From: Dehalococcoidia bacterium
Lineage (GTDB): Bacteria > Chloroflexota > Dehalococcoidia > Tepidiformales > Tepidiformaceae
NCBI GenBank assembly: GCA_023382755.1
Contig: JAHDWR010000004.1
Location: 1 to 38,773, forward strand
DNA length: 38,773 bases
Direction of reading: 5' to 3'
The notes under the pieces were generated by a model. The model made no database searches. It worked only from the letters and a program-made list of their open reading frames with translations, and had not been told where the DNA came from. The position numbers were made by a program, and so were the translations under genes. Positions 9,614-22,227 of the stretch are shown here, one piece after another. Numbering within the stretch: position 1 is the stretch's first letter; every line of letters starts with the position of its first letter.

Positions 9614-9683
9614 TAAGTCACTTAGCACGCACTTTTTACAATCGGCATCGAGTCTAAGCAGTGTGGAACATACGTCCACGGTA

Positions 9684-9713
9684 TTGACACCGTCCGTCCA
9701 CCCCGGTTATTAC
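9684..9713 (+). promoter_or_regulatory. Sigma70-type promoter for the small ORF at 9758
   Basis: TTGACA at 9684-9689 and TATTAC at 9708-9713 (18-bp spacer). Confidence 0.5.
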
Positions 9714-9757
9714 ATACCGGCCGGTCGGCAAACGGCCGGATAAAGCGGGAGGTGCCT

Positions 9758-9850
9758 ATGGCTAGGCTCCGGACGCTCCTCGTAGTTGGTGCCCTGGCGG
9801 CGGTGGCGGTCGTTTCGACGGCTGTCCCGGCCCTCACCATCAGCTGGTAA
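9758..9850 (+). CDS. 30-aa signal-peptide/TM-like small protein MARLRTLLVVGALAAVAVVSTAVPALTISW
   Basis: ATG preceded by GGGAGGT (9747-9753); ends TAA at 9848-9850; flanked by a promoter-like sequence and a strong terminator. Too short for the ORF track. Confidence 0.6.
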   Translation: MARLRTLLVVGALAAVAVVSTAVPALTISW

Positions 9851-9864
9851 CGGGAGCAATCACC

Positions 9865-9900
9865 AAAGGGAAGGCGGGCCGCAAGGCCCGCTTTCTCTTT
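9865..9900. terminator. Strong bidirectional intrinsic terminator
   Basis: AAAGGGAAGGCGGGCC-GCAA-GGCCCGCTTTCTCTTT: about a 16-bp stem (two G-U pairs), GNRA loop, T-rich 3' side. Confidence 0.88.
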
Positions 9901-9919: not shown

Positions 9920-10453
9920 TCAGGAGACGGCTTCTTCCGTGGCAACCTGCCCTAAGCGGCGATAGAGCATCTCCGCATCGATGAGCCGGGCAACCGTGCC
10001 CGCCAGGCGCATCGCTTCCGCCGGTGCGGCGCCTCCATCGATCGCGGCCTTCCCAAGGACCGCCTGCCGGCGCTGCAGGTAGCTATCGAGCACGGTTCGT
10101 GCCGCGGGGTGGTCCGCCGCGGTCCGCCACAGATCGGCGAAGAGCGATGCATGCTCCGTATCGCCGGGAAGGCCGAAGTAGCGCAGCGCGGCGGAAAGTG
10201 TGTCCGGTGAGCCCGCCAGGGACTCCGCCACCCGGTCGAGCCTGCGTTCCGCCTGATCCATCAGGCCGTTGAGGACGCCGAAATAGAGGTCGAGCTTGGT
10301 AGGAAAGTTCGCGTAAACGGCGCCCTTCGACAGGTCCACCGAGGCGGCAATCGCATCGATCGAGGCGCCATCGTATCCGCGGGTGGCGAATGCCGCCGTA
10401 GCAGCCTTCAGCAAAGCGGCGCGGGTCCTAGCCCGCCGCTCTTCCTGGCGCAT
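9920..10453 (-). CDS. TetR/AcrR family transcriptional regulator
   Basis: MRQEERRARTRAALLKAATAAFATRGYDGASIDAIAASVDLSKGAVYANFPTKLDLYFGV; typical N-terminal HTH. The upstream part of the 807-bp ORF is spurious. Confidence 0.88.
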   Translation of the reverse strand: MRQEERRARTRAALLKAATAAFATRGYDGASIDAIAASVDLSKGAVYANFPTKLDLYFGVLNGLMDQAERRLDRVAESLAGSPDTLSAALRYFGLPGDTEHASLFADLWRTAADHPAARTVLDSYLQRRQAVLGKAAIDGGAAPAEAMRLAGTVARLIDAEMLYRRLGQVATEEAVS

Positions 10454-11852
10454 CCTGATCCTGCCTCCAGGCAGGAAGATAGAGCGGCCGCCTGGTCGCG
10501 CCGTGTTCTTCCTCCCGCCACCGTGGGAACGCTGCTTCGAAGGCCTCGACAACCTTTGGGTCGAACTGCGTTCCCGTGCAGCGCAGTATCTCAGCGAGCG
10601 CTGCGTCTGGCGACTGGCCCTCACGGTATGGGCGGTCGGAGATGATCGCGTCGTACGTATCGCAGATAGCGAAGATGCGCGCGCCGAGCGGGATGTCTTC
10701 TCCCTTGAGCTTGCGCGGGTAGCCATCGCCGTCCCAGCGTTCGTGATGGGCCAGGACGATTTTCGCGGCCGGGCGGAGATAGGGAACCTGGGCGAGGATC
10801 CGGTACCCGAGCGCCGGGTGCCTGCGCATGAACTCCCACTCCTCTTCGGTGAGCTTCGCCGGTTTCAGCAGGATCGCATCGGGTACACCGATCTTGCCGA
10901 CATCGTGCATCAGCGCACCGCGGTACACCGTCAGCAGCTCTTCCTCGTCCTTGATGCCGAGCATCTTCGCGATATCCAGCGAATGCTGCGCGACGCGCAC
11001 GGAGTGGCCGCGTGTCTCCTGGTCGCGCACGTCAAGTGCCGTCACGAGCGATTCGAGAGTACCCGTGTAGGCGTCCTTCAGTTCGTTCGACATGTCGCGG
11101 ATTTCCACGAATGCGCTCTGGAGTTGTTCGTTCGAGCGTTCGAGCCGCATGACGTTTTCTCGCGTGCGGTCGACGAACTGGGCGATGGAGTAGCGGCTGA
11201 GGAGTAGCGGAAGGGCAAGGACCAGGATCGCTGCGATGCCGAGTTGCCCGTAGACCACCGCGAGTCCGCCCCCGACGACGCCGAGGACCAGGTAGTGCGG
11301 CAACAGCCAACCGAAGTTTTCCCGGTAGCTGGCCTTGAGCGAACGTCCCGACGTCAACGCGATAATCGCGGATACCGACCAGGCATCGACCGTGAACAGG
11401 ATGGCCGCCCCGCTGACGCCCCCGAAGAAGGCCCAGAAGGGGCGTTCGATGGCGTGTTGAGCTCCCGTCATATCAACGGAGGAAAGGAAGACGGCTGCGA
11501 GGAACGCCGCGAGGACTTCGTGGCCAAAGTTGAACGCCAGTTTCCGCTTGTTCCGGCTGGCCACGGCATACCCGGTCATGGCGACGCACGCGGCGGCAAG
11601 GACACCGCCCGGAGGCCCGAACAGCATCGCGGCGAGGAGCGTGCCTACGAACGAGATCGATACGCGGCCGTCGAAATAGAGGCGGACGGAAAGCCCTTCG
11701 CTAAGGGCCGCGAGCAACACCACGGCGCCAAGTGCGAAGGGTTCCTCAATCCGTTCGAGGACGAAGGCGGCCGCGAACGCAACCACGCCGGCAGCGCACA
11801 TCACGCCGATGAAGGCGCTTTCGCGCGTGTTGGAGCCCGTTCGACTCTTCAT
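10428..11852 (-). CDS. Multi-TM HD-GYP domain protein (putative cyclic-di-GMP phosphodiesterase)
   Basis: N-terminal hydrophobic segments, then HSVRVAQHS, LMHDVGKIGVPDAIL and HHERWDGDGYP. Confidence 0.9.
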   Translation of the reverse strand: MKSRTGSNTRESAFIGVMCAAGVVAFAAAFVLERIEEPFALGAVVLLAALSEGLSVRLYFDGRVSISFVGTLLAAMLFGPPGGVLAAACVAMTGYAVASRNKRKLAFNFGHEVLAAFLAAVFLSSVDMTGAQHAIERPFWAFFGGVSGAAILFTVDAWSVSAIIALTSGRSLKASYRENFGWLLPHYLVLGVVGGGLAVVYGQLGIAAILVLALPLLLSRYSIAQFVDRTRENVMRLERSNEQLQSAFVEIRDMSNELKDAYTGTLESLVTALDVRDQETRGHSVRVAQHSLDIAKMLGIKDEEELLTVYRGALMHDVGKIGVPDAILLKPAKLTEEEWEFMRRHPALGYRILAQVPYLRPAAKIVLAHHERWDGDGYPRKLKGEDIPLGARIFAICDTYDAIISDRPYREGQSPDAALAEILRCTGTQFDPKVVEAFEAAFPRWREEEHGATRRPLYLPAWRQDQDAPGRAAG

Positions 11853-22188: not shown

Positions 22189-22227
22189 GCCGCCTTAGCA
22201 CTCTTGACACACGAGTGCTAAGGCGGC
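22189..22227 (+). promoter_or_regulatory. CIRCE element (HrcA operator) with TTGACA in the spacer
   Basis: Perfect TTAGCACTC-N9-GAGTGCTAA (22195-22221), arms extended to 15 bp (GCCGCCTTAGCACTC/GAGTGCTAAGGCGGC). Confidence 0.93.

Follow-up and report, generated by a model that had tools for sequence, protein, structure and literature searches.

A conserved micropeptide gene behind dnaG in the Tepidiformaceae, with a membrane HD-GYP protein as candidate partner

Streptococcal SHPs are signal-peptide-like pheromone precursors with a short C-terminal active peptide, SgrS/SgrT is a dual-function small RNA in which a short structured RNA carries a small conserved open reading frame (ORF), and the TnaC and erm leaders are very short ORFs with critical C-terminal residues. 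The mature enterococcal peptides iCF10 and cCF10 comprise 7–8 residues (PMC7117660). The unit described here resembles the prgQ/iCF10 pheromone precursors in pairing a tiny ORF with a short hydrophobic C-terminal peptide as the putative active part, and its predicted mature product, of the VPALTISW type, would match iCF10/cCF10 in size (7–8 residues; PMC7117660). It differs from prgQ and SHP in that the candidate partner is a membrane HD-GYP protein and in that the tail is, in some lineages, encoded on its own with no leader ahead of it; no Rgg/PrgX-type cytoplasmic peptide-binding regulator lies beside the unit, its neighbours being dnaG and genes for a TetR regulator and the HD-GYP protein. 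Like SR1/SR1P, a dual-function sRNA (PMC8501984), it carries a conserved small ORF on a short, structured transcript, but, in contrast to SR1/SR1P and SgrS/SgrT, the ORF makes up half of the RNA.

The unit lies in a 38,773-nt stretch of contig JAHDWR010000004.1 (hereafter the window), in the gap between dnaG and the TetR gene. The initial annotation had read this gap as an ordered set of promoter, hairpin, ribosome site, ORF and terminator, and each of these elements was found in place, as listed below with the two genes that follow.

9684..9689, + strand: −35 element TTGACA, of which TTGAC is invariant in 22 of 22 aligned copies
9708..9713, + strand: −10 element TATTAC, as read from the sequence, 18 nt from the −35 element
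9717..9739, + strand: leader hairpin CCGGCCG-N9-CGGCCGG, with stem sequences that differ between copies
9745..9756, + strand: 12-nt ribosome-binding segment GCGGGAGGTGCC, with GGGAGGT at 9747–9753
9758..9850 including the stop codon, + strand: micropeptide ORF MARLRTLLVVGALAAVAVVSTAVPALTISW, supported by ortholog searches, dN/dS and column conservation
9865..9900, + strand: bidirectional intrinsic terminator with a 16-bp stem and a GCAA loop
9920..10429, − strand: gene for a TetR-family regulator, overlapping the end of the HD-GYP gene
10428..11852, − strand: convergent gene for a membrane HD-GYP protein (candidate partner) with a multi-spanning N-terminus and an HD_5 domain

The ORF starts with ATG at 9758, runs for 30 codons to 9847 and ends with TAA at 9848–9850. 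Judging from the −10 element, the predicted transcript would begin at about 9719, placing the leader hairpin at or within a few bases of its 5′ end, and the terminator hairpin is common to the unit and the convergent TetR gene. The RNA from 9715 to 9900 folds more stably than 200 of 200 shuffles (z −4.1). A simple promoter scanner reported no + strand promoter at the unit, because TATTAC scores only 4/6 and ends in C, and it registered the terminator only on the − strand. No Rfam family exceeded its gathering score for the unit RNA, and the micropeptide had no above-cut-off match in Pfam or NCBIfam; Pfam SteA-like_C and LPAM and NCBIfam YnaM were discarded with scores far under cut-off.

The whole unit was found in 21 of the 38 family genomes and in 12 of their 18 genera; samples of the class and of the phylum, each comprising about 400 genomes, yielded no recognisable unit outside the family. 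Searching 41 genomes with the 30-residue peptide matched all four other genomes of the same genus (E 4e-12 to 8e-10) and several further genera, with length and C-terminus unchanged. A peptide profile built from ten orthologs gave E values below 1e-11 in 16 of the 38 family genomes; with G041, in which a diverged long peptide (E 0.027) has its own ribosome site and −35 element and adjoins an HD-GYP gene, the long form is present in 17 genomes. The profile found no further full-length match in samples of the class (198 genomes) or phylum (399 genomes), and weak matches in other families were inside long ORFs or partial. One genome (G013, locus L091 on contig G013:C275) carries two whole units in tandem, each complete from promoter to terminator and encoding identical peptides. 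A second match to the DNA of the ribosome site and ORF start was observed in G004 (L025, G004:C304:1812-1860; 82% over 49 nt); it is promoterless and frame shifted, and may be a degenerate partial copy or a chance match.

The signals around the ORF are conserved as well. RNAalifold detected no consensus pair in a MAFFT alignment of the leaders because stem and loop lengths vary; the leader model, spanning the −35 element to the start codon, was therefore built from sequence only, without base pairs, and hairpins were checked copy by copy. This model recovered 20 genomes at about E 1e-5 or better (to 4e-21), with the next match reaching only 6e-3, and a search of 394 genomes of the class agreed with the family result. 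A phylum-level match (G724, E 1.5e-4) fell within a long purE-like ORF and was rejected as chance, and other TTGACAC...GGAGGTG matches within the family lacked the GCGGGAGGTGC context of the unit. Most copies retain the 18-nt spacing between −35 and −10, the latter being TATTAC(AT) in most and TAnnAn or weaker in diverged ones. A hairpin stands between promoter and ribosome site in all 22 copies (shuffle z −0.4 to −4.8), with weak values (−0.4 to −1.8) in genus g13 and a few others. GGGAGGTGC is identical in 18 of the 22 copies, and GGGAGGTGCC precedes none of the ORFs of at least 100 aa in 198 kb of neighbouring DNA; the ribosome site of the unit is thus not simply the house ribosome site. 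Nearly all copies have a strong hairpin 3′ of the ORF, with a weaker U tract in G007 and G017. The promoter spacer (window 9685–9700 and orthologs) is partly conserved, and in several genera a TGACA-N6-TGTCA palindrome, a possible operator, extends across the −35 element.

The initial annotation had proposed a search for the ORF and its synteny in relatives, with dN/dS. The ORF proved conserved, with dN/dS mostly 0.06–0.27 among the nearer long-form pairs and differences mostly at third positions (3, 1 and 16 at first, second and third codon positions when the window is compared with G003), which indicates purifying selection on the peptide itself; ratios for distant pairs are not low (0.5–1.3), and those with G012 and G041 reach 0.3–1.3, with synonymous sites saturating. 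The unit thus combines purifying selection with expression signals of its own, as in conserved small-protein genes, and it is near certain that the micropeptide ORF is a real, previously unannotated gene. Conservation, synteny and dN/dS likewise agree with the earlier view of a stand-alone mini-gene after dnaG with a signal-peptide-like or single-pass product.

The C-terminal 11 residues of the long peptide follow the pattern S-x-A-x-P-x-L-x-I-x-W, in which alternate positions are conserved. Column entropies for 13 distinct long peptides, anchored on the tryptophan and read from the C-terminus, are W 0.00, 1.73, I 0.62, 1.82, L 0.39, 1.74, P 0.77, 1.00, A 0.77, 2.35 and S 0.39, with W present in 13 of 13. 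This alternation suggests that the tail follows a hydrophobic helix in extended conformation and that one of its faces is read. The tryptophan is also retained where the stop codon has shifted (SWG in G009, TWED in G007), which places selection on the residue and not on TGGTAA. A regulatory or dual-function small RNA that works through its hairpin, ribosome site and terminator, with the ORF in a subsidiary role, would account for the strong folding of the unit RNA and for the 12-nt GCGGGAGGTGCC segment and hairpin outlasting the ORF core; against it stand the low dN/dS of the nearer long forms and the tryptophan kept beside a moved stop, both of which show selection at the peptide level, and the lack of an Rfam match, and we consider it distinctly improbable.

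The long forms have the features of a Sec signal peptide precursor, namely a basic n-region, a hydrophobic core and small residues at −3 and −1 (S-x-A in most). The release of LTISW after VPA, as first proposed, was not supported across orthologs, where the −1 residue would be A, M, T or F. S20-x-A22, just upstream of VPA, is nearly invariant, with exceptions in G013 (V for A, −1) and G009 (Q for S, −3), and a predicted cleavage behind S-x-A, leaving VPALTISW, fits better.

Direct inspection of the DNA downstream of dnaG, in genomes that have dnaG and lack a match to the peptide profile, revealed four genera in which the promoter, hairpin and ribosome site of the unit are followed by an ORF of only 6–9 residues: MRSVNW (G021), MLRTIQW with a GTG start (G014), MAKIIRW (G017) and MARNITWED (G007). 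Common to all four are a basic residue close to the start, a terminal or almost terminal [IV]xW (in neighbouring genes 1.2% of residues are tryptophan) and a terminator-like hairpin behind the ORF, which in G007 and G017 is weaker. A GGGAGC(AA)-like stretch was observed right behind the stop codon (window 9851–9860) in many copies, including short forms. In the DnaG tree the short forms occupy separate places, requiring four long/short changes by parsimony, and their union in one clade is rejected (AU p 0.00056); this count is to be read with the closeness of G014 and G007 and the long branch of G017. The hydrophobic core was therefore lost at least two times, probably three or four, with [IV]xW retained, if the long form is ancestral, as we infer because its spread is wider. 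The features of a Sec signal peptide are missing from the four short forms, and no export or membrane segment is present there, so delivery must differ in them.

These short forms bear on three further readings. In the first, the product would be a small membrane protein that crosses the membrane once (N-in, C-out), stays uncleaved and by its helix modulates a membrane partner (HD-GYP or other), the short forms being reduced remnants. Its basic N-terminus, Kyte-Doolittle 19-residue maxima of 1.8–2.4 in all long forms and strongly conserved A, L and G of the helix are in line with such a protein; four lineages, however, lack the whole helix and keep the remaining unit and the tail, whose alternating conservation suggests an extended reading, making this alternative unlikely, if worth keeping in view. 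In the second, a terminal [IV]xW would slow termination on the nascent chain or minigene and the translated RNA would regulate, the upstream peptide being irrelevant. As in the TnaC and erm leaders, the ORF is very short with critical C-terminal residues, and long and short forms share only the residues near the stop and the basic residue near the start. An attenuator leader, however, has a regulated gene in cis downstream, and what follows in most copies (exceptions G014 and G021) is a terminator and then a convergent TetR or HD-GYP gene, leaving no downstream gene to attenuate; the long forms also conserve helix residues, and in G009 and G007 the tryptophan is 1–2 residues off the stop codon, so that we regard this effect as very improbable. 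The least supported reading, a type I toxin whose antitoxin is an antisense RNA, would fit the size and hydrophobicity of the product and the single tandem duplication, in G013, which recall membrane type I toxins (PMC8309996); Ibs, Ldr and ZorO are likewise small, hydrophobic and terminator-bounded. The unit differs from these in that antisense promoter-like sites are missing from all 22 units (by consensus scan only), in its single copy per genome at a conserved place across most of the family, in cationic residues that are N-terminal, unlike those of typical toxins, and in the persistence of forms of 6–9 residues without a hydrophobic stretch; a toxin thus seems highly improbable.

The usual gene order in most genera is dGTPase, SH3/CARDB protein, dnaG, unit, (TetR), HD-GYP, CoA transferase and cysS. 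The cysS gene comes straight after dnaG in G009, G011, genus g7 and those g12 genomes that were sampled, which suggests that the unit, the HD-GYP gene and the CoA transferase gene entered between dnaG and cysS as a block. G018 keeps the CoA transferase and has lost unit and HD-GYP gene together, as one block. No TetR match adjoins the unit or the HD-GYP gene in G007, G012, G017 and G041, and the TetR regulator is therefore probably dispensable. The HD-GYP protein matches Pfam HD_5 (E 2.3e-38), with MASE9 below cut-off (E 8e-4). Searches with its membrane part showed that, of the 36 genomes whose assemblies include dnaG, 21 have both the unit and the HD-GYP gene (G013 being counted from an HD-GYP fragment) and 15 have neither, with none discordant; the two discordant genomes (G008 and G053) are assemblies without dnaG. 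The Fisher test gives p 2e-10 with kinship ignored, and the three independent contrasts on supported branches are all concordant, a number too small for significance. The pair is also kept where its members are apart, in G014 and G021, in which the unit adjoins dnaG and the HD-GYP gene is on another contig or about 100 kb off, and where both sit together away from dnaG, in G041. The co-occurrence partly reflects ancestral linkage and is suggestive of a partnership without being proof, because linked genes are lost together.

We tentatively favour, while rating it at somewhat less than an even chance, a reading in which the peptide is usually delivered to the membrane by its signal-peptide-like segment, acts through its C-terminal tail and has the HD-GYP receptor as its likely partner. 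Transcription from a sigma-70 promoter would give a product of about 180 nt that opens with a stem-loop and closes with a terminator; this RNA, whose ribosome site is very strong, would be expected to yield abundant peptide. In most genera, delivery of the C-terminal tail would fall to residues 6–19 as a signal-peptide-like segment or membrane helix, S-x-A-x-P-x-L-x-I-x-W would be read in extended form, and signal peptidase might cut behind S-x-A to give VPALTISW. If activity resides in the tail, and in [IV]xW most of all, lineages without the helix would for that reason still encode it as an ORF of 6–9 codons. The likeliest partner would be the multi-spanning HD-GYP protein encoded alongside, a predicted c-di-GMP phosphodiesterase for which the peptide would serve as an input. 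A more specific proposal, which we hold to be doubtful, makes the tail peptide the ligand that the MASE9-like membrane domain of the HD-GYP protein binds; c-di-GMP signalling would then be under peptide control, and the precursors that several lineages have reduced to 6–9 codon ORFs would encode the active peptide directly.

Too short for gene callers, this unannotated gene has been kept in 12 genera, and in four of them, with only 6–9 codons, it ranks with the shortest ORFs for which genome comparison indicates selection. The repeated loss of the hydrophobic core with the tail kept points to the active residues without experiment. To our knowledge, no ligand is known for the MASE9-like membrane sensor domain; if the HD-GYP link holds, the peptide would be a suggested input for it, in a group where any cultivable member would allow this to be tested. 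Elsewhere in the window, at 22197–22222, a TTGACA lies within an inverted repeat (TAGCACTC...GAGTGCTA) that resembles the CIRCE/HrcA heat-shock operator.
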